A DNA stretch of 33,302 nucleotides. Source: Ectocarpus siliculosus (taxonomy: Eukaryota; Sar; Phaeophyceae; Ectocarpales; Ectocarpaceae). Shown in pieces: positions 162-18,000 of the stretch; the stretch's first letter is position 1; every line of letters begins with the position of its first letter. The stretch is from positions 1,650,934 to 1,684,235 of the forward strand of contig FN649739.1 in assembly GCA_000310025.1 (NCBI GenBank), read 5' to 3'. The notes beneath the pieces are model-generated. The model saw only the letters and a list, made by a program, of their open reading frames with translations, was not told the DNA's origin and did no database searches. Position numbers and translations under genes: made by a program.

Positions 162-185
162 TTAGACCGACGAATCGCACCCCGA
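162..185 (-). CDS. Myosin-Tubby exon 21 (candidate last exon)
   Basis: After a pyrimidine-rich tract ending TTTTGCAG, the phase-0 frame reads SGCDSSV then TAA. Tubby domains usually end (I/V)ALSSFD plus a few residues, so ...GVAL-SGCDSSV-stop is a fitting end. Chosen by position, phase and this short resemblance only. Confidence 0.55.
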   Translation of the reverse strand, partial: SGCDSSV

Positions 186-3100
186 CTGCAAAATTGAGCG
201 AAAGAGAAGGAAGGCAGCGTGGGAGAGGGACGGGCCAGGTCAGAGCGACGATCCGGGTACAGTGGGCAGCAACACGCACCGGTTGGCATGGTACTCCCGA
301 GTAATGTAGAATATTGACTCAGTTCTCTGAGTTTGGCTCTTGACAAGACTGGGCCGTCTGGAATGTGAATTTGAAGTACCCTCGTACAAGGACGGCGTGC
401 TTAAGCAAAAAAAAACGTTACGATTGTCACTCGACTTGCTGCGCATTGTTTGGGGATTGATGCACGTCACGCGGGCTCCCAAACACGAAGGATTGTTCTC
501 TGCAAAAATTATATGTAGCAGTGCTGTTACGCAACGGCCGTGTGGATCAAGCCGCACTTACCAGGGCAACACCAAACGCAGCCAGTGGGCTGAACGGCCC
601 CGTGAAGTCGAGGGCGAAGACATTGTCCTCTTTGGAGCGGCCGAACTGCATGATGAACTGCCCTCGGCTATTGTGAAGCATGAAGTTCTTGACGGACTGC
701 TTCTTGATGCGGTCCTTGTAGAACTCCAGCACGAAGTAGCCCGCCTATGTGTGTGCGTGTATGCGTTTTTATTATTAGCATCGACTGCGCTAAGCGGCTG
801 ACCGATGAAAATACATCAGTCTCAGTGCGGTTGAAAACACAAAACACTGTTAAATGCCATGAACTGGGACCCCGTGAGAGGGCAGCATGGGGGAGGCTAA
901 GCTAATCTCCGGATGAAAAACAGAAACGGTAGCAACAGAAGAAGACTGCATGCGTTTACCAAGGCTGTTACCTTGCACTCGACTTCGTTTTGGGGTGCTT
1001 TCACCATCATTCTCATCATTTCGACAGCAATTGTTCGGCAATTTCTTCTCTGGCCCCGCGTCGTTTGTTATGGGGAATGTGTGTGTGTGTGCATGCCGGA
1101 CCAGAATCACATGTCCCTCAGAGATGCGATGAGCACAAGGGTTGACTGCCACCTCGTTCTACACAGTAGTATCGCCACATCGAAGAATCGAAGAATATAC
1201 TGGCCATCTGCTGACCTCTCCGATGCGAGCGATTTTTGTACCCGCAACTTACGTCTTCGTCCCATTCCGGCTTGATGCTGTGCATGCGAGGTACCGGGGT
1301 GATGATGTTGGTGTTGTCGTTGCCGAAGCTGTTGAGCAGCGATGCATGGTCTACCAAGTCGTCATCACTGTCCGCCACCAACACCTGCGCACCACACAAC
1401 GCCGGAAAACGAATGTTAAAAACAATCACAGGAACATTGCATCCAGTAGCACAAGGTTACTCGTGTGTGCACGCCACGCCACAAACATTGTCACATATCA
1501 TCACGTGTTGACGGGGAGATCGCTCTCGTACGTCATCCATCGACTTTAGCCCTCGTTGGGTTTTGGTGTCCCGAGGGGCCGACAATGATGTGCGGACGAT
1601 AACATTTCGGTGGCTTGCATCGCACCTCGAGCTTTCGCGGTCCCTGGAAGTCGTCGTGGCGAGTCAGGTCGATGCTCACAGCTGCAATTTCCTTGCGTTC
1701 TGGCTTGATCGTGTACTTCTCGGGCCTGCCGATACAGCGGAAGCGAGAGTGATTGAGGTTGGGTATCAGCTCCGCTTGGGTGTTTACAGAATAGCCGCGA
1801 CTTCGCCGGGAAGGGAGAGACCAGCACGATCCACACCCGACACAAGAAAAAAAAAAAATCATTCTACATCTACAGGAGAAAGATCGGGAGCTCACTTGGA
1901 ATTTCAACGCCGCCTAAGAGTAAGGATTTGCCCGAAACACAATTGTCAAACGAAGCATTTCCCTACCACCAAGAGCCACACTCACAGAGTTTTATTCGCC
2001 TTGAAACCGTTGTCGTAGACGATGTATTGTCGCCGCTGGGCCACCGCCTTCACCTTGCCCAGCGTACTAGGCTCTCCTTTCTTCATGTACTCTGGGTTCA
2101 TGGCGATGATGTAGCGGCCCTTGTCTTTCTTGGCCGTCATGAGCAGCTTCATTGAGGGCTGCAACGAGGGCAGTTTGGCCGAAAAAGCAATGTCTCAGAC
2201 TCCGCCTTAGCGTGCGGTATTTACAACCAGGCGATGCCGAGCATGCGTGTAGAACACTTCGTCCGTTAATAAACCAACCAGTAGCGACTGGAATCCAAGA
2301 CAAGTGCCCTTAGCCTCCCCGACTCTGGGCTAAAAACCGGCAACACGCGCCCATTCCCCTGCTCACCTCGTAGTAAGCCTGGTAGATTGTACTCATGACA
2401 CCCTTCTTGCGGCGGATCATGCACTCGATTACCCCTGTCTGAGGCTCCACTGGCTGGTTAAGGAATGCCCGCATCGTTGCCTTCGTGAACGGTTCCGTTC
2501 GAGGAGCACTGTGACGAAAACACACGTGGGGGAAGCAAAGATCAGCCACATCAAGCCAGCGCACCGGGACAAACCAATCATGATCGCCAACGAAAAACGG
2601 GGCTACTTCTAATTGCTGTTTTATGTGGTTCGTGCGACACGCAGAGGATGCAAATCACCTCAGATTCGCGCCAACTCGCGCATCGCTGGGCGACGCCTGC
2701 CCCCCTTGCCCGTCCGACAGATCCTCCTCGTCCTCCTCGTCGTCCTCCTCCTCGACGTCCTCCTCCTCGTCGTCCATCTCTGCACGGATGGGCGAGACCG
2801 GGGCAGCGTCCGAGCTGCGGTCGTCCTCATCTTCGTCTACGGTGACGCGCAGCGCAGACTCTTGCCGCGCCTTCTCTCTGGCGGCCGCACGCTCTCGCCG
2901 GGCTGCTTCCGCTTCGGCTTTTCGGATTCTTGCTCGCCGGGCTCTCCAGTGCCGGATGATTTTTCTCGAGCTTCTTCGCTCGTAGAATGCCATCACCTCC
3001 TCCAGGTGCTCGTGCTCTGCACCCCTGTTTCATTTGAACGGTGCAGGCAGACAGAATCAGTAAATAACGATACGTCGGTGACGCGGCCTAACAGCCGCTG

Positions 3101-6100
3101 TTGCCACTTCTGCGCGCAGCTCAATTGGCTATGCATATTGCATGAGTGTGGCGGCGGATCTTCCTGTCGTATGTTGTATAATACGCAAATGCCAACCAAC
3201 TGCACCGAGGAAGTCGGGGGACGGTCCTCGGTGAACGACGTAGATTTGGCCTTGTTTTTCCGTCTGCGAATTCAGCTCCAAGCAGCAAGGGTGCAAGCAT
3301 GCATCTATGGGGAGACAGACATGCACGCGCTTAATCCCATGTCCTTGGACGCCTATGTTGTTCACACTTCGATGGACGATGCACTACTGAGCACAGGCAC
3401 ACACACACACACCCACACCCACACACCTGATGAAGATCTTGGTCCTTCCAACCTCGAACTTCGTCTTTGAGTCTGGGTCGTGGCGGTCGCGGATCAGCAA
3501 AGCATCCGCCAACTTCGTGCACACGACGGCCTCGCTTTCTGCGTCTGCGGGGCGACCCGATGCCGTCAACTCTCGCGGACCGAGTCTTCCATACCTCTTG
3601 ATGAACTCAGGATGGGACACATTCACCCCAACGAACTTGTACACCTTCAATCGCGAGAGTTGCACCGGTTCGCATGCGGAGCCACAAGAGCCACCAGATT
3701 AACTCAAGCCAATGAAAATCGTGAAAGTGTCCATCAAACCACGCTGGAGCTGCAGCACACAGCAACTTCTGTGACCGTGACAAGAGACTATGAACACAAT
3801 AAAGTGTTGCTCTTCCCGAACGCTGTTCATCGCCAACGCGCTACACCCCGAAACCTTGCCGTTGCGACACTTCCACAACGCCTGAAATTTCGCATGCTGC
3901 ACTACTGCTGTTTGCAATGTATGTAGACAGAGGATGATAAAACTATGCCCACACGAGGATTGCTCATGAATGCTCTGTCGTACGCAAGTTCTTCCGCCAA
4001 CTCACTAGTCTAAGCAATCAGCACTAAATGCACCTTCATACCTGCGCAGCCTCAACGATGCTGGCGGACAGCAGTTGCTGAGTCACATATTCGTCCTCGA
4101 ACAACACCGGGTCGTTCTCCATGTTGGGCCGAATACACAGAATGTACTGCACCTGTGATACCACAAAAAACACTTGCAAGGGTTAGTCGTGTCCCGCAAC
4201 AGTGCTGCTGTACCTAGACCATCGGTTGCAGTACCGAACGAAATAATCGAGATCAAGTAACCGTTCAACAACACCGCGTCTCGTGGTGACTGATGTCTGG
4301 GAGCCATGCTTCTTACGGGCTTAGCTGAGACGTGGGTCATTCCATCCAATTGTGGCGTACCTCGGTAGAGTGGATTCGCTCCACCAAATCCCTAAGCTCG
4401 CCCTTGAAGCGCCGTCCCATGCTCTCCCGCTTCAAGACTTCCTGCCCCCCTTCCATGACGGAAGACACGCGCTTACCCTTGCGCCTGAGTTTTTTTCCCG
4501 CGGAACCGACAAACGAGCAACACAGAAAATCGGGGTTCGTGTCATGCGCAAGGAACGAGAAAAGTATAACAGCAGTGGCACCAGTAGCCTACGGTGAGTG
4601 TAAATTCAAGACCAATTGGTACTTCTGTAGAACTCTTCCTTTGAACCAATCAATCGCACGGTTCTAAACACCTGGGCTTAGCAAATCTGTTCATTTCAAA
4701 CATTTCTGCAGCCTTGCTGAAGAGGTTTTCTCAGCAAAACCTGGTCTTCAGAGCAGTCCACCGGGAATATCCAAGCGATACACACACTCACGCGCCCCCT
4801 CCCGCAGGTCCGGTCTCCTTCTTCTTGAACATTGCCAACCGAGCCTGGAAGTCATTCTGCGCCGGCTGCGAGGACTCGCCCTCGTCGGCTCCTTCTCCGC
4901 CTCCAACCGCGTACGCGTACACCCTACGCAGTCATGTCGAGCATGAAACGGATATCGCAACAAAACACGAAGCGCGTGGAACAGTTGCCATCAGTAAACA
5001 ATACCTTAGCCTAGGTCTTCCTGCCTCTAGGTCAACGTATCGTGAGCACTGCACTTGGTTGACTGATCGTGAGCACACACAAGGGGGGGGCCTACTGAAC
5101 CCTCTCTCGCCTTAAAATCGAAGGCAAGCACAGCAGAGGGGGTGGGACATTAAAAAAGCGCCTGGTATCTTTCGTGATGTGACAACCCCGGCTGATCTAG
5201 GTAAAATACATACAAGTAGGGTGGCGCCGGAGTAGGTGGGACGCAGATACACACAATCTGCTAAAAACAATCCGCGTCTGCGTGCAGGGGTCGATGACGG
5301 AAAAAGCACACCTTCGGACCATGTTGTTCGTGCTTGCGCCGAGCAACTTTGCGACACTGGTGTGCAGTTTATCCCTGTTGCGTTCCACAAACCCGTCTGC
5401 GTCATACTTGACAGCGTGATTGTAGTGGTGGACGGTGAAGTGCTTGAGCCTCGAGTTGGCTTTCAAGTGCTGCTCGTGGGCGACCTGGCGAGAATGCGGC
5501 ATGCCGATCAAATCACGCAAGGGCGAACGCACGCATGCACACATGTCAGTGACGGCTCTTGAGCGGGCTTGTGTTGGATCCAGCGTTTGCGCTCTACAGT
5601 AGAAGTTCCTGTCTGCCAGCCACCCGCTATCTAGCATTGCTGAACGAGGATATCTCGAGCGGTTCGCCATCGCTCCTAACCAACTTCCGCATATTGCTGG
5701 ATACAGCCGTCCACCCGGGTTGTTCTTCCTACTCCAGCTATCCACGTCCAGCTAGGAAATTGCGAGGAAATGATAATCGGTGTGTTGAAGTCTCCTCTGT
5801 GCCACACAGTATATCAGCAAAGAGCTCCGGCTGTTGGCTTTTTCTCGCGCTCTCGTTAGATAGATCAAACGCGGCATGTGTATCTACCGTCAACATCGCC
5901 AACATTTGACAGGTGCTCTACATAGCAACATTTTGGTGTCGCATGTTTCTTAGAACCGGATTGAATACGTGCTGAGGTGTTGTGTTAGCACGTGGCCATG
6001 GCCGGATGGCAATCTGTTGCATTCTTTGTGTCGGGGGTGCTAGTGGGTGTTAAGTGTCAAGTTTTCGACGACAAGTGGACCATGCTATGCTGACAACAGG

Positions 6101-9100
6101 ACTGTCTTGATGAGCTGATTTATATCAAGACAAATTGTCGGGATATCGCCACCCAAAGATGTACCTGTAGTGAACATCCTACGTTCATCAGCTTGATTCC
6201 CACGCGTTTTAGCATCCTTTAGCTCGGTTCATGTTTACAAGGACACTAAAGCGGCCATTGAGTGCCGATTCTCACGTTCTCTACGAAACCAGGTGAGCTT
6301 GCCGTGCTACAAATCTGTTTCGTGAGTTGAGTCCCTCCCATGGCATTTGCACAATCAAGAGTGAAGGTGTTGCCGTCGGAAGCTCAATCGAACGCCCCTC
6401 ATTCCGCACACATCGGATGAAACTACATTCCAAAGAATGCATCCCTCAGCCGCTCATCTCCAGCGTTCCGGTCGGTGAACACGTGTATGGACCACGGCAA
6501 TGCACTTCACCAACGGAACGCAAAAACTGACCTGTGTTTGAGACTGCAGCAGGGCCACGAAGCCGCTATCTGTTCCATGGGGCAGCAGGCACTCCTCGTC
6601 AAGCATTGAAAGGACGCCCCTGAGAAAGCGAACGGAAGACGATCAGCAGCAGCAGCAACAGCAGCATAAGCGGCAGTGTTGGAGATGTGACTTCTTACCT
6701 CACCTTCCCTTGTGTGTACAGGCCCAAAATATCTGCCGCCGTATTCTCGCACGACACATACTTTGCACAAGCACCGGAAAATATCGGCATGAGGTCTGCG
6801 TATGGCGGTATCGAAGCTATATTCCAAGAAACCAAGATAAATTGGCAATATTCGCAAAGGCTGTAACGTAAGCCCATCGGTCATGGCAAGCTCAAGCACA
6901 CCCGCCAACGGTGGCCAGCTGGATCGCCCTAGAAGAATCGCGGATCGCACCTGTTACCCTCCAAGGTTTCGAGGATGGTCGTGTTATCACGGTACATGAA
7001 CTTGGCGTAGTCAATTCCCTCCGTCTCGCAGAGCCTCTCAACCGACTTGAACACGTCCTGCGGAGTGGAACGCAAGAATGGAGCGCATGTTTGGTTGTAC
7101 TGCAAAGGCGGCAAGGTGGCAAAACCTCTGACCAGAGTTTCAATCGAGGGCCAACGCGTTTAACACCGACAAACGCTGCGGGCTTGGCAGGGTAGAACTT
7201 CGGTTTCACCTACGCAGCAGCGATTGTCAAACCCCACATCTTGCCTGGGAGTCACATATTCAACCAGACACTTCCACAAAATAAAAACCAAGACGATTGA
7301 TTAAGGTGCGGTGCCCACCTGGATGAACATCTGCTGAAGTTTTTCGCTCGCGTAGTTGATCAGAAGCTGCTCGAACCCGTTGCGCCTGAACGACTCGAAC
7401 CCGAAGATATCGATCAATGAAATCGTCCCCGCGGCCTCCTCGTTCTCCGTGCAGCTAAACCCCAAGCGCCGCACACACCACAAACAATACACACGAGGCA
7501 TTGGTCAGCTGGTTTGCGTGTTCGATCTCGACCAATCAAGCACAGTCATGGCAAGGTCGAGAGACGGACGAGGGGGAACCACGAAAGCAAGAAGATACAC
7601 AGCTTCTCTGTGGCTTGCTAGGCAGACTTGTGAACGCCCGATCGATCTCCTCGTTCTTTGCCTCGACAATCTCCAAGATCCCGTTAAAGTTTGCAAAGGC
7701 AACGGTAGAACTGGCCCTGCAGCAGGGAAGGGAGCAGAAGCCGCAACTGTACAAGTAGTGACTACAATGCAACACGAGGCCACCGTGTGCCCACCAGAAA
7801 CGAGCGTGAGCATTCTCGTCACGTTTTCGGCAAAGCTTTTCGAATCAAAGATCCCTCTCTCCTTAGCATCGCCAGACAGCCGAGAGGAGCGGAGGATCTG
7901 TCGAGGTGAGTGTCTATGCACCCACCCACGGGTTTTTGGCTAACCTTGTGGCCTCGTTGATCTTCTTCAACAGGTAATTGAAAATGCCTAGGTACACGTC
8001 CTTGGCCAGGGCGTCCCTTGCCGATTGCGCCTCCCCGACTTTGTTGGGCTTGACGAAGGTCTCGCGAGCCACCATCAGTGGCCGCGTCAGCAGCGCGCCT
8101 GTCAACTCCTCCACGCTCAGCCCAAGCAGATCGGCCGACGTCTGCAACGATTCCTCCGTCCCCCCGGCAAGCTTACTGGCATCATCCGTGCGGCCAGTGT
8201 CGGAAAGAAACTCAAGCTGCGCCGCGGAACGAAAGGTGGTCGGAAGAAGAGCAACCGCACGGAACAAATGGCGGCTCCTGTAAGGACAAATCCATAAAAA
8301 TAAACATCACAAACGCTTACACACATCGGACAGCTGCATCAAGCGAGGGTGAGCAGCGCCCCCAGGGAGGGGCTGCAGCGGGAGTCATTACCCAGCCCAG
8401 CGCAAAACGAACCTGCCCCAAATGAAGGAGCCCCCCCAACGCCTTGAAAACGTCCTTCTCTTCTTCGATCGCGATCCCTAGCTCGCGGATGGCATCCTGC
8501 ACTTCCGCCAAGCCCGTGAAGTCCATGTCCTCCGCCGGCGCGTGGGTGTTGAGGTACTTGAAGTCGTTTGAAGTTTTGCCTGCATCAAGAAATGGACGGG
8601 ATGGCCACGAGGCGGTTAAAATCTACCAGACAAACAGGATCTGCTGACGCCACGCGCTCTGTCATGGCTGACGTTTGTAATCTGAGATAAGTGCAAGTTG
8701 GTGGCTGGCAATGCTGTGTTGAGCGTGGGGTGATCGCGCTCAATCGGCCTTTTCTTGTGGTCAGCGCGTTCTCTGCTGCGAAAATATTTTTGCTGCTGTC
8801 TGGATCCTGTCTCTGTCTCTGTCTCTCTCTTTGCCTCCGTGTGCACACACAGCGCGCTTCAACACCCCCACACGCACCCAGACACACACGCCAGACCGAA
8901 AAGCCGTTTTCGTCTTTGCATGACACCCCGCACAGCTCGACACAAACAGCTTGCTCGGCGGCAAGTGCACTGGGACAGGTTACCGTTGTCGGCTGCCGGC
9001 GTGGTGTATACTACTCAACTTTTAGTACAACGACGCTCACACATATGTCAGACTCAACAAAGTGCACTGAATTCATGGCATTGCAGTACGTCCGCACGCA

Positions 9101-12100
9101 CTCATCATAGACCAGAGGCGAGATATGCATCAGATAAACAGCAGACGCGCACGGCGAAATCCAAACGGCAATACTGCTATTGGTTTGCTGTGTGGTGCTC
9201 ATACTGCTCTGCTGTAGTTCCACGCGCTCTCGTGGCAATTTGTGAAAACAAGTGAAAACAAAACAAAACAGACATTTCCCAAAAAAAGACACACGTGCAT
9301 CAGGCGGGTTGCTGCCAGAATATTTTGGACTTCGTACTAGCGTGAGTCGCCTCTGCTTTAGTGCTTGCGCTTAATTAACAATGCCTGCGTTGTGCCGTGC
9401 TACTGTATGCAAAGTATGTGCTGCTCCTGTTGATTAAAAGGGAGTGGACAGTTCCTCATCGTTCCGCGTTCCTCACTTCGCTCATCCTAAACCAACGAAC
9501 AAGTATACCATGGCAGAATATGCAGCGCTGCAGAATCATGGCGTTTGACACGAAACCGCTGGCGAGCGAAACCAGCTTCAAACTTGCTGCACCCACCGCC
9601 TCGAGTACATGGCATGGGAACCACATGTAGATATGGTGCTAGCGGCAGCAGAAAATAGCCAAATTAATCGGAGACAGATGTGACATGGTCGTGGTGCGCT
9701 AGGCCGCAAACATCATACCTGACAACTGAAGCGACTTCTTGAAGTCTTCGTCGTCGGAGCCCACCATCTGGTAAAACACGTGGAAATTGCGCTCTCGAGA
9801 CGACCGAGACACCACGCGACTCTTTTCCAGGAGGTAGGTGGTGTTGAGCGATCCGACCATCTTGGGGATGTCCCCGTCGTCGAACTGCAGCTGCGTCACT
9901 ACTCCGTAACGACTGCTGTTGTTGTTGCCCATCTGTATCACAAAAGAAAGGGAAGAAACGCGCACGGCAGTCGAAAAACCAAACCCCTAACGGGCGGAGT
10001 GTGCCTGGAAATACTCAAGCCGCCGGCAACGATAGCGTGCACGAAGTCCTTGTCATCGCCAAAGATTTCCGCCACGTCAAGAAGATGAGAGCACGTGAAC
10101 CCATGAGCGTTACGGTGGAAGCCCTTTTGGGCGACACAATGACAGTGATGGCGACCAAGTCCTTCAGATGCCGGACGGAATGTTGTTCCTTACAGGCAAC
10201 ACAGCGACATACGTCGAGGGAGGCTACCAGCACCAGCAAATACTTACGCAACACGATCGGGGGCTGCCAACGGTCATCGCAACGACGATCCGGTTGTGAA
10301 ATATTCTTCAAACGCGCAAAATAGCGCGTCCCGCAACGGAAACCCCACGAAACTCCGTGATACGCTGTCGGGAATTTGGAGTCTTGCTCACGACACGACA
10401 TCGAGCTACTGGGCATACAACTCGCTATTGATGGGGACTTCGTGAGGGGGAGCAAAGACTTCGCCGCAGAATCTGCAACACAAGCGAAATGCGGTTTTCA
10501 ACTGTTTGGAGGCGTCCTATGTGAAAGCCATAGTTTCTTCCTTCTCACGCTCTCCTGAGGTACTGTAGGCCTGTTCCGTCAACAAATCATAGTGGACTGA
10601 CTGCTTGTGAGATCGACGTCAACACTTATCGAACAAAGACATCACGAGCACGACGTCGCGAGAAGTTGAAACAGAATAACGCAGATCGGGCAAGGACGAA
10701 CCCCTCGATGGCTTCACGTCGGATTTCAACGCGACCCATATGCTTCCGTTTTGAGGCCATGCGCATTTTCTATGTTTCGGACAACGTATTAAAAAGGCAT
10801 GGAAAAGACACTGTCGCAGCTCCGTGTCTTGCGGTAGGTCCCTGGGTGCCGTCAACTTAGGCGAGATTTTCGAGTCTCGGCAAAAAATGGAGCTATCCAA
10901 CATCAGAGAAACTCCGTCTGCTGCCGTTGTTGGAATACGTAAAAACTTTCAGTTTTCGACAGGCAGCTGTGAGCGTCAACGAGTCCCAACTGGTTGACGG
11001 TCGGGTTGAAGTGGCCATAGTTGCCTTGCGGCCGGGATTGGATACATTCACAACAGCCCTCAGCCTCTCTTTCGTACCCCTTCAAGCAAGCTTTGCTGTG
11101 CGCCGTCGCATGAGAACCACTCAGCCTACCGGAGTTGGGCACAACGATAACTTAGACTCTTTTCCATTCCAAGGTATTTACTTGTTTGGCCAGTACAGCT
11201 GCAGACGACTACCAGTATTGCACTCAAGGATAGACAAGAGCGAGCGCTGCACGCACTCTTTCCTTCCTGTGGCAATGGCAATGATACAAACCACACACAA
11301 ACCAAGCCCATTCCGCGTGGTATCTTGGACGGAAGGACTAGGACAAACCATATTGAGTCAGTTTGGAAAGAGGCTGTCTGACTGTACATACAGTAGCGCT
11401 AGCCATCCTTGCTGCTGCTTTTCTACGACTGACGCCGTAGCGTTCACCACGGTCACTCATCGTATACAACCGCACACCCCAGCACTTTATATTTCATGTA
11501 CGAAGATCATGACCAATACGGCTGCTACTGGACAGGACAAATCCGCGTTGTTATCTCCTCTACCTTAAAAACAACACGACGCTCTGGCCCATCGTCATCG
11601 AGCCACTTTTCCCGATTTTTTCCCCGATTGCGTTTTGTTTTTCAGGGAAACGTTTCATGTCGATGTCAATCTCACGACTCCATGGTAAAAACATGCAACA
11701 GAACGAAGAAAAACAGGCCTCCTTAATTGCTTTGTTTTCTGTAGGGGGGGGGGGGGGGGGGGGGTCACGGGTCGCGACATATGCGCTCGACAACAAAGGG
11801 GCGTAGGAAATTTGATTTTTCGTGTATCTGCCGAGATTGAAATCGCAACAACTCGAAAACAAGACGAGCACACCACCACGAGAATATCTTACTTCTGTGA
11901 ACGACCGAAAAAATCGTCCATATATACTTATGATCATCACCACAACACAATGTAGTCAGCAGTAACATATATGTTATGTCGGAAAACAACAATCACTGCA
12001 ACAGCATCCTCCAGAGAGTTGACTGCACTGAACCATGCATTTGAACGACGGCCAAGTTTTGGTCCAACTCCCAAAAGGAAAATAACGTCCGCCAAAAAAT

Positions 12101-14814
12101 TGTTTATCATGAGCAAGTCAAAATCAACCGCCCCAAGCTTTATGCTTTGCACAATGGCCCGTGGAACAAGGTCCTCGCTTGGACCTGTCTCTCTACCGGT
12201 CTGTTGTCTACAGTAGCTCTATGCGCCTCTCACCATGACCGCGTTTCCAAAGCTCTCCAGCACCACTGTACACTCCACCATGTGCTGAATGCGCTCGCTG
12301 CCCACCCCTCCCTCCTCCGACCCAGCCACGGACGCCAAATGACCTAGCAAGAGCTTCGCCGTTTCCGTCTTCCCCGCTCCTGAAACACCGCTGATCAGGA
12401 TGCTCTGGTCTTCCTGGCCCTCCAGCAGCGCGCTAATCCACCATAATACAACAGCAGTTGGAGTTGGTGTGACCGAACCGAAGAGACAAAGAAAGGAATT
12501 GACAGTTTGACACGCGCACCAAATATCGTAAGCCACGAGGGCTACTCACGAAGGACGTAGTCACGTCTTTGGACCACGACCACTTGCGGAAGTTGGCCAC
12601 CAAGAGAGCTGAAAGACAGGGCTTTCGCAACAGCAACCAATTGGGATGGTGCTACAACATTCAAAATTTCGAGCTGAATGCAATATCACGGCGTGAAAAC
12701 TGCTGCGGACGTAGGTTAGTACTGCGTTGGGTTGTTCTGCTAGTTTCATGGCGAAGCCGCCGTCTGTGCCAGCAGCATGTATTTGTGGTGACTACGAGGT
12801 AGACCTGGAATGCGCTCAACAGCAAAAATTCAGAGGGGTTCCCGAAAATGTTCAGGTATCCCGGTGGCAATTTGGTGACTGTTTTTTCTAATTTTCCATG
12901 GGGTGCAACATAGGGTGCTTGGTCATGCTTCGTCCGCATGAAAGACACCAACCAGGATCTACCGTTATTCTAATGTTATTCCGAAGCATATTATGAATAG
13001 TCGAAGCCTTTGATTGTTCGGATGCATATGAGCATATTGCGCGAAGAGCGAGCGAGACGCGCAATTTGCGGACCTGTGGTGGCTTCCATATCATGGTCTC
13101 ATCGCACGCAGACCCAATCGCCCTCTATGCCAGGGCTGTCTGCGTTAGAGCCGGGTCTCGTGTTGCGCTTGTTATTCTGGATGGAGCCAGTTAGTGCCTC
13201 CCACGCCATGGCAGCTGTACTACAAGTACTTCGAAGTACTTCACGCCTTCTCTTGAACCAACACATTTTCTCTTCCAGCTGGCCCCATCAGAGCAGTCTA
13301 CATAAAATTTACACGCTGTCTTTCTTCGTGATGTGTTTCGAGAGCCATGCGCGCAAAAGTCACCAACGAACAGAGATTGGAGACAGCGCACAGGAATAGG
13401 CGTGCACTCAAAGGTCTGCTGGGTATATTGTATGGGGTAGACTAGAATTGCCACCCCGTGTATCGTATCTAGGAAGTAGTCAAGCATGTCTTGAGATGGA
13501 ACAACTTGCTACGAAAAAACAGGTTCCAGTTATGAAACAAACATGAACATGCTCCTGCGCCGCAGGTCACAGGCACAATGTGCAGCTCGTGTTCTCGCAC
13601 TGCTGTGCGGCGTCCAGACTAGCTAGCCCTCAACCTGCTGCGCAAACATAGCTCTCGCTACACAGCCCGGGAGACTTCCAAATGATGCATCATAGAACTA
13701 TTCACTATTTAGAGTATAGCAATGCATTTACGCCGTAGGAGGTAACCTGGTACCATTGCACTCAGCGAGGCGCGAATGCCTTGGCGGTAGTTAAACGCCA
13801 TCCCACTCCTACAGACTCTTGTCTGCAGGTTTCGTGCAGCGTAACGGGGAAATGAGAATCTTCCGCGCCCACCCAATGCGTTAGCACAGATGAAAGCGCG
13901 GGGGGGGGTAGACTATTCGCAAACGAACGAGGGTACAACGTAACGCCCGCCGGACTGGTGCTGCTGTCTGTTGGTTGAGCACACACGCAGCAGCACAGTA
14001 GTCTGCAAAAAAAAAAAACATTCGGTACAACAGCCCCACGACTTCCGAAAAACCAACGTCGCACCCGTCGCATCCGCGAGCCACCTAGGTACCGCCCGGG
14101 AGAGTAAACAAAAACAACATGCACACACAACACGTACACGTTAAAGCGGCATAAATCAAGCTGACATACCACAAAGCCTCTTTCCCTCTACCCTCACCGA
14201 TAGGCAGCAGCCGTCGATTTGTAGATGTGCGCCGGCAGGTCTCGCCGACCTGGTTCTTGGTAAGCCAACCCAAGGTCATCATCGTACAGGTCAAGCCACT
14301 CGAACGGGTTCACGGCCACCACAATATTTCCGAGGGAGGTGTATGGCCTTTGAACTTTGAAGCGCTTGTGCAAATGTGCTGCGATGGTGGCCTTGTTGTA
14401 GTCATCGAGCTGATTCAGGTCCTCCTTCGGTACCGCTCGCTGTGATTTGATTTATTTGCAGTCGAAGCAAGAAAACAACGAAAGACGTGTGGCGCGTGCA
14501 ACATGCAACCAGCGATAATCATCAAAGCACGACACCGGGTGCGTGGCCCCAACTCTCAACACTCCACAACGTACACGTAATGGCAGCGATGTCGACCACT
14601 GCCTGACACATCCTCGCTATCCCGATCCCACCCCCTGTCGGCGCAAAAAGGGGGAAGAGATGACCGAGATGAAACGCGCCGTCCGTCCAAAAAGAAGAGT
14701 TGCCTCCGCAGTGGGAAGGAATCATTCTGATACGAGAACCGCCAAGCGCGACACCGAGAATACACGCGCAAACACACACAAAGACATCCGCACCTCAGCC
14801 GAGAAACGACTCAT
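162..14814 (-). CDS. Myosin motor - Tubby domain fusion protein (21 exons, gene-level model)
   Basis: This is an actin-based motor ATPase whose tail ends in a Tubby domain. Exons in transcript order: 14814-14794, 14439-14198, 12432-12234, 9932-9719, 8579-8413, 8216-7945, 7454-7319, 7057-6951, 6619-6532, 5484-5312, 4923-4792, 4484-4361, 4152-4042, 3644-3427, 3024-2659, 2508-2367, 2158-1986, 1725-1626, 1384-1253, 744-562, 185-162. Every junction is GT-AG and phase-compatible, giving 1,107 residues. Motor motifs: P-loop GVSGAGKTE (about 103-111), switch I NNNSSRYG (157-164), switch II DIFGFE (387-392), relay GVLSMLDEE, converter end GRTKIFIR. The neck is about 735-800, an acidic run 817-839, and the Tubby domain about 858-1107. 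In the known families, myosins hydrolyse ATP on actin, and Tubby domains often bind phosphoinositides. Membrane tethering of this motor is inference. There is no SH3-like N-terminal extension. Start and stop exons are tentative; the middle is secure. Confidence 0.9.
562..744 (-). CDS. Tubby domain exon 20 (SVKNF signature)
   Basis: Encodes [20 protein letters not shown] then [20 protein letters not shown] and PLAAFGVAL-type end. Close match to Y.LNF.GRV..(A)SVKNFQ...(I/V).QFG(R/K)...D.F..D...PL...QAF.IAL. A consensus GTAAGT donor follows CTG, so one more coding exon is needed. Confidence 0.95.
745..1252 (-). other. Intron 19 of myosin-Tubby gene (508 bp)
   Basis: Bounded by GTAAGT and CATAG. 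It has short GT/AC runs (near 1079-1093 and 749-762) and no coding-like sequence that fits either neighbour. Confidence 0.8.
1253..1384 (-). CDS. Tubby domain exon 19
   Basis: 44 codons, phase 0 at both ends, acceptor GCGCAG, donor GAC|GTAAGT. It ends [12 protein letters not shown], equal to the family's L.NK.P.WNE; the first half ([20 protein letters not shown]) fills the variable loop. Confidence 0.88.
1626..1725 (-). CDS. Tubby domain exon 18 (GPRK motif)
   Basis: The AG at 1727-1726 is the one that restores phase. It gives [20 protein letters not shown] then [10 protein letters not shown], matching (R/K)EELAA(V/I).YE.N..G.(R)GPRKM.V. A second AG about 55 bases upstream would shift the frame. 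Confidence 0.88.
1986..2158 (-). CDS. Tubby domain exon 17 (NYLIS / YDNG core)
   Basis: Encodes [20 protein letters not shown] (compare family FLLAA(R/K)KRKKSKTSNYLIS.DP), then [21 protein letters not shown] (family FVGKLRSN..GT.F.(V/I)YDNG). The basic loop before the IIAMN strand is shorter than in animal members. Strong GTGAGT donor in phase 2. Confidence 0.93.
2367..2508 (-). CDS. Tubby domain exon 16 (N-terminal strands)
   Basis: One base completes Ser, then [20 protein letters not shown] and [23 protein letters not shown]. The second part matches the Tubby entry motif (G.(I/V).C.I.R.K.G......YP.YYL). Acceptor GTCACAG, donor GAG|GTGAGC, phase 0. Confidence 0.88.
2659..3024 (-). CDS. Myosin-Tubby exon 15: neck, basic helix and acidic linker
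   Basis: After the converter comes [19 protein letters not shown], one weak IQ-like repeat ([13 protein letters not shown]) and an Ala/Arg/Glu/Lys-rich stretch (about 770-793) likely to form a single charged helix. A run of Asp/Glu follows (817-839, coded by GAG/GAC repeats at about 2717-2785). It ends through a CTGAG|GTGATT donor, phase 2; without splicing, a TGA follows at once. Confidence 0.9.
3398..3426. repeat. (AC)n microsatellite touching a splice donor
   Basis: AC dinucleotides with CCC interruptions. On the minus strand it reads GT/GGGTGT right from the exon 14 donor, so the start of that intron is a TG repeat. Confidence 0.9.
3427..3644 (-). CDS. Myosin exon 14: converter
   Basis: Begins [20 protein letters not shown] after TTGAAG and ends [10 protein letters not shown](R) (family G.TK(V/I)F(L/I)R), with about 25 variable residues between. 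The GTGTGT donor opens directly into a TG/AC microsatellite (3398-3426). Confidence 0.93.
4042..4152 (-). CDS. Myosin exon 13: YILCIRPN block
   Basis: Encodes [15 protein letters not shown] (family form HYIRCIKPN), then [19 protein letters not shown] (family V..QL...G(V/I)LE). 37 codons, phase 0 at both ends, acceptor CACAG, donor GTATGA. Confidence 0.95.
4361..4484 (-). CDS. Myosin exon 12: loop 2 basic cluster and actin-binding helix
   Basis: One base completes Ala, then [18 protein letters not shown] and [20 protein letters not shown]. The second half matches (T/S)(V/M)G..F...L..L...I..T, the segment before the HYIRC(I/L)KPN block. The Lys/Arg cluster suits loop 2 binding to actin. Donor GTACGC, phase 0. 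Confidence 0.88.
4792..4923 (-). CDS. Myosin exon 11: loop 2 insert, acidic/Gly-rich part
   Basis: Acceptor GCGTAG, donor GTGAGT, both in phase. It encodes [16 protein letters not shown] followed by [19 protein letters not shown]. Position between the lower 50-kDa block and the actin-binding helix makes it part of an enlarged loop 2. No homology beyond position and splice fit; the [11 protein letters not shown] string looks like a short conserved motif but I cannot name it. Confidence 0.72.
5312..5484 (-). CDS. Myosin exon 10: HYxxxVxY block
   Basis: Acceptor CGCCAG. It encodes [20 protein letters not shown] then [20 protein letters not shown], matching F.(I/V).HYAG.V.Y...GF..KN.D.L......LL..S. 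Ends in phase 2 at GTGTGC. Confidence 0.93.
5485..6531 (-). other. Intron 9 of myosin-Tubby gene (1,047 bp)
   Basis: Runs from a GTCAGT donor to a CGCCAG acceptor. I see no conserved protein motif, repeat family shared with the rest of the window, or RNA gene in it. Confidence 0.75.
6532..6619 (-). CDS. Myosin exon 9: LDEE motif
   Basis: Short exon encoding [20 protein letters not shown] and VALLQSQTQ, the conserved G(I/V)L..LDEEC..P..TD..F block. Acceptor CTCAG, donor CAG|GTCAGT, phase 0. Confidence 0.93.
6951..7057 (-). CDS. Myosin exon 8: relay helix region
   Basis: Acceptor [23 protein letters not shown] then [16 protein letters not shown]. Two donors lie close together: GTAACA at 6957 and GTGCGA at 6950. 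Only the second (phase 2) keeps exon 9 in frame and gives [14 protein letters not shown], as expected from LIE...GIL.LLDEE. Confidence 0.88.
7319..7454 (-). CDS. Myosin exon 7: switch II exon
   Basis: After TTTAG, one base completes Ser, then [15 protein letters not shown] leads to the switch II motif DIFGFESF, followed by [19 protein letters not shown] and IQ. Near-perfect match to D(I/L)(Y/F)GFE.F..N.FEQL.INY..EKLQQ.F. Donor GTGGGC. Confidence 0.97.
7945..8216 (-). CDS. Myosin exon 6: HO-linker and pre-switch II helix
   Basis: Starts LEFLSDTG after CGCAG, contains [19 protein letters not shown] (the family's LLG(V/L)....L...L..R), then [20 protein letters not shown] and NEAT. It ends in phase 2 at a GTTAGC donor; the next exon supplies the last base of a Ser codon. 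Confidence 0.95.
8413..8579 (-). CDS. Myosin exon 5: upper 50-kDa helices
   Basis: Two bases complete a Gly, then [10 protein letters not shown], a [16 protein letters not shown] block and [12 protein letters not shown]. These equal the family's ...YLN..., F..T..A...LGI and (I/L)LHLGN stretches. The donor is CAG|GTTCGT, phase 0. Confidence 0.93.
8580..9718 (-). other. Intron 4 of myosin-Tubby gene (1,139 bp)
   Basis: Runs from GTATGA to GATGCAG. It contains a TGTCTC/TCTC simple repeat at 8807-8831 and CACACA-type runs near 8842-8890. Nothing coding is recognised. Confidence 0.75.
9719..9932 (-). CDS. Myosin exon 4: switch I exon
   Basis: Acceptor ATACAG, donor GTATGA (phase 1). FGNAVM is followed by [17 protein letters not shown], the switch I motif (N.NSSR(F/Y)G), then YLLEKSRVV and RNFHVFYQM, the standard SRV...RN(F/Y)H(V/I)FYQ block. 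Confidence 0.95.
9933..12233 (-). other. Intron 3 of myosin-Tubby gene (2,301 bp)
   Basis: Joins the P-loop and switch I exons. It includes a 21-base G run on the plus strand (11744-11764). Several open frames of 60-210 codons occur but none has recognisable motifs or fits the splice phase. Confidence 0.8.
11744..11764 (+). repeat. Homopolymer G21
   Basis: Twenty-one consecutive G on the plus strand (C21 in the intron RNA of the myosin gene). Exact length may be affected by sequencing slippage. Confidence 0.95.
12234..12432 (-). CDS. Myosin exon 3: P-loop exon
   Basis: Begins with one base completing the Arg of AYR, so the text reads [18 protein letters not shown] across a 1,765-bp intron. 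It carries the P-loop [12 protein letters not shown] (usual form GESGAGKTE, so Glu is replaced by Val) and ends at LESFGNAVM before a GTGAGA donor. Confidence 0.95.
12433..14197 (-). other. Intron 2 of myosin-Tubby gene (1,765 bp)
   Basis: Splits the Arg codon of AYR just before the P-loop exon. It contains an 18-bp perfect palindrome at 13224-13241, a G run at 13900-13908 and A runs near 14009-14020. No coding segment recognised. Confidence 0.8.
14198..14439 (-). CDS. Myosin exon 2: start of motor domain
   Basis: Entered after CACAG and left at a GTGAGG donor in phase 2. It encodes [20 protein letters not shown], then the [18 protein letters not shown] purine-pocket region and [11 protein letters not shown]. 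These match the canonical ...DL..L......L..R......Y...G.I..AVNP(F/Y)...Y......HI(F/Y)..A..AYR segment just before the P-loop. Confidence 0.9.
14794..14814 (-). CDS. Myosin-Tubby exon 1 (candidate start exon, 7 codons)
   Basis: An ATG at 14814-14812 opens seven codons (MSRFSAE) ending in GAG before a GTGCGG donor, phase 0, which fits exon 2 exactly. The same frame stays open upstream to another ATG at 14910-14908, so the protein could be 32 residues longer. Chosen by splice phase and closeness, not by homology, because myosin N-termini are poorly conserved here. Confidence 0.4.
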
Positions 14815-15096: not shown

Positions 15097-18000
15097 GTGA
15101 GCACGCCGATCTAGCCATAGTTAGCGTTATCCAGTCCGTGTGTGACTCGCGCGGAGCAAAAAAAAAGCTTTGTCTCATACTCATTCCGCGGGCAAAAAAT
15201 AGGCAGTACGGGCCACGGGCCACAGGCGCCGGAAGGGGCACTTGCACCTTCTGTTCACTGCTGCTGTGTTGACCCTCCTCCAGCTACCTAGCTACTGATC
15301 CCTTCAAGTTGTGGAGACTGCGTCACCACCGAGTTGGCTAGATCGCAGGCGCAACGCAGCTCTTTGTCGATATACTTCTCTCTCTCGCCCCCTCTCTCGC
15401 TCTCGCTCTGTGTCTCTACCTCTGCCACATCACTGTCTTCAAACTCTCTCCTTTCACCCTCTGCCTTCTCTGTGCCATCTCTATTTCCTGACAGCTTTGA
15501 GGCTCCCCTGGAGCCTCTGCAGGTGCTGACATGGGTGCTGTTGCTTCTCATCGTGGGAGGCTTTTATTCCTTCATCGTCCCGGCACTTGCACGAGTGTGG
15601 GCGATTGTCGCTGGCCTGGTGTACGGGGTGTTGGCCTCATCAACAGTCCTTGCCGGCATATTAGCCTGCTTGAAGGACCCGATTGACCCTAACGTCCGCC
15701 GCTTCCACCAGGTAAGATGGATGCATCGACTTCTTTTTGGCCGGGGGCAAGAAGTGGGAGGCCCACAGGCTCATGCCACGTAGTTGCTTGTGTGCAACGT
15801 TCATTTTGTATTCGAACCAATGTTCCGCATCTGACCCAGTCTTTTCCTTTCATGTTGGTGTGTGGCTCGTCTCTTTCGGAACATGCTCCATCACGTGGGG
15901 TTTTGGGCATTAACTGACCAGGGCGAAACTGCGGCGGGGTCGGCGGCCGACAAGACTTTCTGCTTCCTTTGCCAGCTGCACGTGAACAAAGGAAGCCGCC
16001 ATTGTCGCTATTGCGACAAATGCGTAGATAGATTCGACCACCATTGCAAATGGTGAGTCCGTTTGACTGGTCGCACGAGAGCAAGTTGTGTTCACCACAA
16101 CCCACAACCCTACAGCTGCATCGAATTCTGAGTAGTGTCGACATAATCCTGGTCCGGGAGCTGGGAAGAGTTTCCATCCTCAACAACGTGCGTAATGTGC
16201 TGCTATTTTCTATTGTTTCACATCAAGCCGAAGAATATCCGTCGGCGTGCTAGTCCCAAGCTGCTTTCTTTTTTCCTTCTTGCGTGTTGCTGGACACACC
16301 TTATTCGCCAACAAACGAAAACAACAGCACGCGTTCCACTTGAAAAAATAACGGAGTCACGCGGCAGGGAGGGGCAGGGCCCCGCCGGCAGCAACTGACG
16401 CAAACGGAAAGATAATGTACTCGAGCTACTACGTATGCATGCACACAGCAGTAGTACATTGAGCCAACAAAGTGCAACCCGAGAAGCTAACCCAAAATAA
16501 CACCAACCCTAACCGTAAGTCGTCCTGTAGATCCTTGACAACTAGCATGTTCGGCCGGAGAGTCGATACGCATGTCGCTTAATTAAGTGCTCCCGAAAAG
16601 AACAGCCGCGACCGGCCCTGAACGGAGAGAGAGGGCACTTCTCAGAATACCCATCCATGCGTGTGGCCCGACATAGTGGCAACTTGAAGAAGAGTGGACC
16701 TGCCCATATAGTGCCATAACAATGTCTTGTCACAATCTCGACATTTTGTTTTTGTTGTTGTTGTTGTTGTCTTCACATTAAAAACCGTTCCACTCTCTCT
16801 CTACCGAGTACCTTCATATGTCCGTACTGATCCAACACTTGACGCGGTCGATTCCCGTGGTCACAGGCTAACTTACCCTCAAAAGGTACACGCAAATAAA
16901 CTGGCCCCGAGGGGTCCGCAAGTCAATAGAAATCAACGACAGATATGCTGGAGTCCTCCGCTCCCTCTGCGCGCTATGCGAGGTAACAACTGAGACTAGG
17001 AGTCAGCATCACGGGCCAGAGAGAAAGAGGTACACCCCCTTGGTTCAATCTTGGTACTTCACAACGCAAGGAGAGAAAAGGCCATGTGACACAGAAAAAG
17101 ATATGTACATGAACCCGATATGATGTATCGAATAGAAGAGTAATGGCACTGCCCTGAATAATGACATATTCTCCTTTTACCCCTACATGCCACTACGTAT
17201 ATCGGGCCAACCTCTGTATGCACTTTTAGTGGTGAGGTACTCGATGCTTTCATCCATCTCCTCGCTAATGTGCTCGCTGTTGTTGTCACAACAAACATCA
17301 ACCCACATCATGAATGACGTACAACGCAACATCATGCGTACAATACTCTACTTGCCGTGGAGGTGCGCAACGCTACGCGAGCAAGGCGTCAACAGTAGGA
17401 GGCGAAACCTAGTGACAACACAAACAAACATGACCAGACAGAAAATATCCACCATGGACGGAAAACTGCACCTCAATAACCCTGCCGTCCGCGTTAGATG
17501 CGCACCTACACGATGGTTGGGCGGGGGACCCCCCCAAAAAAGCATGAACAAACAAACAATAATAATTCATAGAAGTAAGAAACGAGCGAGGCCAGGAGAG
17601 TGAGCCAGACCCGACAGGCTTCAGGAAGGAGACGGAAGAGAGCATAGAAAAAGCGCCCTCCTCGCCGCTCTGAACCCCCAGAAGCTGTCACATGGGCACT
17701 GCAGCAAGCATCATGGTCGTGACCATTCCCTGGCAGCACCCATCGTCTCCCGTACAGCAGCGGGATGCACGGGTAGCCTCTTTACTCAGCCAGCAAGAAA
17801 AAAAACAATCGTGGTTGGCGTTGTAGTGGGGACCCCACCGGCCCGGCGAAAGGCGAGAGGAGAGAGCGAAAGAAGACAAGGCATTCACTCTCGAGAAGAC
17901 ACACAATCTCGTCCCTCTGATCACTGTGGCTCGAGATTAGCGTTTAAGACCCTGTCGGGGGGTGGAATGAAAATGACAGGGATAGAGAAAAAAGTGAATT

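Follow-up and report, generated by a model that had tools for sequence, protein, structure and literature searches.

A probable fusion of a myosin motor to a C-terminal Tubby domain in the brown alga Ectocarpus siliculosus

The myosins of heterokonts and haptophytes grouped as myosin XXI carry diverse tails, among which the main text of one survey lists IQ, WW, PX and Tub (PF01167) domains (PMC3942036, Sebe-Pedros et al. 2014). Because Tub is on that list, the joining of a motor to a Tub domain is not new, and stramenopile and haptophyte myosin XXI settles the doubt, raised in an earlier note on the present locus, whether this lineage was known to have the architecture. Class numbers differ between schemes, the class-21 of Odronitz and Kollmar 2007 being an arthropod class (PMC2375034, PMC5583752), and myosin XXI is expanded in oomycetes and Hyphochytrium (PMC5795050). 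Among the main texts covered, Tub is named as a myosin tail in PMC3942036 only: the main text of PMC5795050 does not name it; that of PMC2375034 holds no word beginning with "tub"; the two such words in PMC5583752 are one mention of tubulin in the text and one entry in the reference list; and PMC4501334 names Tub only among proteins with DNA-binding domains. A second named class, stramenopile myosin XXX, has a PH tail in Ectocarpus or a PX tail in Phytophthora infestans, according to the main text of the same survey (PMC3942036).

The window analyzed here, a stretch of 33,302 nucleotides of Ectocarpus siliculosus DNA, holds on its minus strand a gene model in which a myosin motor is followed by a Tub domain. 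Its features, in positions of the window, are the following.

162..14814, minus strand: complete model of the myosin-Tub gene, running from the ATG at 14814 to the stop at 162 in 21 exons that encode 1107 aa
14814-14794, 14439-14198, 12432-12234, 9932-9719, 8579-8413, 8216-7945 and 7454-7319, minus strand: exons 1-7
7057-6951, 6619-6532, 5484-5312, 4923-4792, 4484-4361, 4152-4042 and 3644-3427, minus strand: exons 8-14
3024-2659, 2508-2367, 2158-1986, 1725-1626, 1384-1253, 744-562 and 185-162, minus strand: exons 15-21
3024..14424, minus strand: overall span of the motor-encoding exons (Pfam Myosin_head, residues 13-735)
2659..3024, minus strand: exon 15, with the end of the motor match, the neck, one IQ-like stretch and a basic then strongly acidic linker
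2509..2658, minus strand: intron 15, 150 nt, separating the linker from Tub, with an in-frame TGA one codon in
174..2456, minus strand: overall span of the Tub-encoding exons (Tub, residues 875-1104)
1986..2158, minus strand: exon 17, whose GKVK (first letter at residue 938) lines up with the phosphoinositide pocket pair K330/R332 of mouse tubby

Conceptual splicing of this model gives a coding length of 3324 nt including the stop, a multiple of three without an internal stop, and all 20 introns have GT-AG borders. The earlier note had counted 20 phase-consistent junctions and a total divisible by three; independent splicing returned the same counts and recovered the 3427/3024 and 2659/2508 junctions identically. 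Two further stretches were considered as exons and left out of the model. An extra exon near 12620-12560 was dropped, exons 2 and 3 splicing directly in frame (12 protein letters across the join, not shown), and a stretch near 7716-7600 was omitted, exons 6 and 7 likewise splicing directly in frame. An Rfam scan of the window yielded no match at the gathering score. The plus strand carries, about 1 kb beyond the start codon of the myosin on its upstream side, an exon encoding a DHHC palmitoyltransferase finger (15835-16056; PF01529, 38.2 bits, E 1.8e-9).

Both domains are near full length on the spliced product, so that the continuation of the motor in phase into a Tubby domain, as first read from the open frames, holds on the assembled protein. 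Residues 13-735 match Myosin_head (PF00063) over profile positions 2-679 of 679 with 522 bits against a cut-off of 33.3 (E 2.8e-156), and residues 875-1104 match Tub (PF01167) over positions 3-255 of 256 with 120.7 bits against a cut-off of 27 (E 1.1e-34). Among solved structures the motor has its best match, at E 5.7e-104, in 7kch, the heavy chain of an unconventional myosin, with myosin V next, and the Tub part matches mouse tubby (1s31, 1c8z and 1i7e, E about 2e-24; 2.1e-24 for 1c8z/1i7e), TULP1 and TULP3. The protein contains the signature SVKNF as well as further motifs (36 protein letters, not shown). The neck holds a single stretch of 11 letters (not shown) at residue 757 that we take to be IQ-like from the IQ consensus; Pfam returned no IQ match in the spliced protein. 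C-terminal of the neck follow, in order, a basic linker, a strongly acidic linker and the Tub domain.

An open frame across the two domains is by itself compatible with two genes because intron 15 has a TGA in frame after its first codon: a motor gene could end at this TGA after exon 15, and an adjacent Tub gene could start at M872, an in-frame ATG in exon 16 just upstream of the Tub domain. The dimensions of intron 15 argue against such an arrangement. At 150 nt it is the shortest of the 20 introns, whose two middle lengths are 354 and 376 nt, and these 150 nt, which contain no AATAAA, ATTAAA or TGTAA, would have to accommodate both the terminus of the motor gene and the promoter of the Tub gene without a poly(A)-like hexamer. 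An early stop of the same kind is moreover common in this gene, occurring at the same index in 5 of the 20 introns, intron 15 among them.

The further evidence comes from other Tub loci in the genome. A PF01167 profile search gave 12 matches at seven loci, with all 19 candidates scored, and at two loci besides the window a motor precedes Tub on one strand. The first, on C15, yields a protein of 1168 aa from 23 exons (Myosin_head 725.5 bits, Tub 164.2 bits) in a model that lacks a located start codon and joins the linker and Tub exons across a run of N (4771249-4771556), continuity being assumed. Since position 23 is the first of the profile to be covered by the C15 Tub match, this gap has probably cost the model an exon; it also hides the junction equivalent to the one at intron 15, a circumstance that leaves room for the two-gene reading. 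The second, on C62, shows the motor as pieces from 135657 down to 128928 and, after it on the same minus strand, Tub as pieces near 122849-123181, the motor rows here being profile-search pieces instead of a full gene model. The C62 motor pieces look degraded, with DMFGYV at switch II where the other readable motors have E; their P-loop reads GESGSGKS.

With the window left out, 2 of 6 Tub loci thus follow a motor in the same orientation, for which a simple random-placement model with 21-24 motors and distances of 10-20 kb gives P between 5e-6 and 2e-5. Counting the window (3 of 7, 21 motors) lowers this to 6e-9 at 10 kb and 5e-8 at 20 kb, excluding it being the fairer calculation. At the remaining Tub loci, on C8, C33 (two loci) and C21, the stretches examined gave no motor-profile match; the upstream reach of that search was 10 kb on C8, about 3 kb or less on C21 and little or nothing at the two C33 loci, so that the absence on C33 and C21 rests mainly on the genome-wide PF00063 search, in which the 65 of 144 candidates scored gave no match on those contigs. 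One of the C33 Tub proteins is preceded, within a 602-aa open frame, by a long charged stretch in place of a motor.

The tails of these proteins have far diverged, since a tblastn search of the genome with the window Tub recovered only the locus of the query (5 of 5 matches) and no other Tub. The window motor did match other myosins in the genome, with a C15 exon (56%) as the best match apart from itself. Of 1026 aligned positions, 369 are identical between the window protein and that of C15, and of the 20 window introns 2 recur in C15 at exactly the same position and in the same phase, one of them within the motor and the other within Tub. That the Tub tails arose only once is made less secure by the Tub of C8, for which no motor was found within 10 kb upstream, because it was the best-scoring other locus against a profile of the window and C15 Tub domains (53.6 bits). 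Among viral contigs (IMG/VR), 67 pattern matches included no confirmed relative of the Tub pair. The EsV-1-7 repeat family has at least 150 matches in the genome (150 of 880 candidates scored), an indication of a brown-algal host; the main text of one report describes it as expanded in brown algae, with a patchy wider distribution and an occurrence also in viruses (PMC7457493).

The earlier note had proposed placing the motor in a myosin tree, and it was placed here among motors of its own genome. A maximum likelihood tree built under LG+F+G4 from 557 columns, with 19 of the 22 motors collected, C368, C15b and C289 having been dropped as too short and the PF00063 places on C70 and at C7:1844281 lying outside the collected set, separates the motors of the window, C15, C27a and C62 from the 15 others at UFBoot 100. 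The window and C15 enter this tree as full models and the others as fragments selected with a profile whose first version was made from the window and C15, and the supports are taken from the unrooted tree. Inside the group of four, the window pairs with C62 (UFBoot 99) and C15 with C27a (UFBoot 96), the former pairing being open to attraction because both branches are long. The tail of C27a counts neither for nor against a Tub domain, a run of N of 6322 bases (2476000-2482321) filling most of the 7 kb after the motor, where such a tail would be expected. Because Tub follows a motor in each of the two pairs, the fusion most simply predates the split between them, and it is most likely older than a small family made up of the window copy (C14), C15, C62 and perhaps C27a. 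Unusual motifs were seen in two other motors, on C191 and C3b, with GESGAGEG as the P-loop and SQQSCRAG as switch I, which may be exon-edge artefacts.

Taken together, the short gap between motor and Tub and the existence of other motor-Tub loci make two adjacent genes very unlikely, all three motors followed by Tub falling in the one group of four. The proposal that motor and Tubby domain belong to one gene is upheld by the same gap, loci and tree, and we hold a real fusion, considered on its own, to be very probable; a single transcript would then run across both parts.

If so, the Tub domain would be the part by which the protein docks. In mouse tubby, K330 and R332 belong to the PI(4,5)P2 pocket, as given in the main texts of two reports (PMC10445746, PMC6366083). 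At the positions of mouse K330, R332 and R363 the window Tub has K, K and R and the C15 Tub has R, K and E, in a numbering that assumes the mouse chain to end at 505 and agrees with the letters at these three positions; the basic pair of PI(4,5)P2-binding Tub domains is accordingly present in both the window (K/K) and C15 (R/K). Docking on a phosphoinositide membrane, as the earlier note had suggested, is plausible because both pocket-pair positions of the window Tub are basic; what these residues offer is a prediction of binding. The fusion may instead be genuine and its tail mainly bind a protein partner, such as a cargo adaptor or the ciliary machinery, in place of lipid. TULP3 occurs in PDB entry 8fh3, which we take to be its complex with IFT-A, mouse N310 of the pocket falls in a loop deleted from the window Tub, and C15 has E at the position of R363. 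These points are met by the basic character of the K330/R332 pair in both genes compared and by the fact that the TULP3 segment binding IFT-A lies outside the Tub domain. A tail mainly devoted to a protein partner is in our estimate unlikely.

The explanation that we favor, and judge on the whole reasonably probable, is a single-chain unconventional myosin with a lipid-docking Tub tail, the fusion predating a small family. One gene would give one chain, composed of an ATP-driven actin motor, a short neck, a charged linker and a C-terminal Tub domain. The predicted ligand of this domain is, most likely, PI(4,5)P2, either in the plasma membrane or in that of vesicles. PH and PX domains often bind phosphoinositides, and the motor may move or put tension on phosphoinositide-rich membrane along actin, as is thought for PH- and PX-tailed myosins. 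That there is one mRNA, that the motor is active, that the tail binds lipid and that it carries a cargo are steps that we infer.

The window motor keeps GKT in the P-loop, SSR in switch I and DIFGFE in switch II, and the residue 16 places before DALAK, counted by hand, is an acidic E, presumably to be read by the TEDS rule. It has V at position 2 of the P-loop, where all 17 other readable motors of the genome have E (2 unreadable), and S in the SH1 helix, where all 14 other readable ones have G (5 unreadable). The two departures, E to V in the P-loop and G to S in the SH1 helix, are possibly new. In muscle myosin, replacing the SH1-helix glycine strongly slows sliding, and for this reason one may reasonably consider, as an alternative, a motor that is slow or acts as a tether: the protein could be a weak or slow motor that serves mainly as a tether between actin and membrane, a reading compatible with lipid docking and overlapping the one we favor. 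To the two substituted positions can be opposed the arginine of switch I, the glutamate of switch II and the lysine and threonine of the P-loop, which are all intact, and we regard a mainly tethering protein as possible, on the unlikely side. A wider form of the idea would make of these proteins a brown-algal subfamily of lipid-docked myosins, some retuned to slow or non-cycling tethers and C15 kept canonical, as a division of labor. It is suggested by the loss of the SH1-helix glycine in the window copy and by the switch II glutamate not being seen in the C62 pieces, and we consider it speculative and rather doubtful.

These results support the view that a motor-plus-Tub fusion, present as one entry in the tail list of PMC3942036, exists as an actual gene, which probably has sister copies in the same genome. 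They add to it the interest of altered motor residues and of Tub-myosins occurring as a small family within one genome, and the window copy, in which those residues are changed, leads to testable predictions on how actin may be coupled to phosphoinositide membranes.

Compared with known systems, the Tub part resembles Tubby and the TULP proteins (mouse TUB 1c8z, TULP1 2fim, TULP3 8fh3) in a near full-length alignment at E 1.8e-24 to 9e-21 and in the basic pocket pair at K330/R332; it differs from them in the myosin motor at its N-terminal side and in the deleted loop of N310. With myosin XXX the protein has in common a motor joined to a tail from among the domain types that frequently bind phosphoinositides; the tail domain itself and the named class are other, and the two may work alike as separate families. 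Myosin XXI in the naming of 2014 is a class with a myosin head and, in some members, a PF01167 tail: from its list of IQ, WW, PX and Tub tails the window protein carries Tub, a likeness in the tail, and the changes in the P-loop and SH1 helix of the window motor set it apart.
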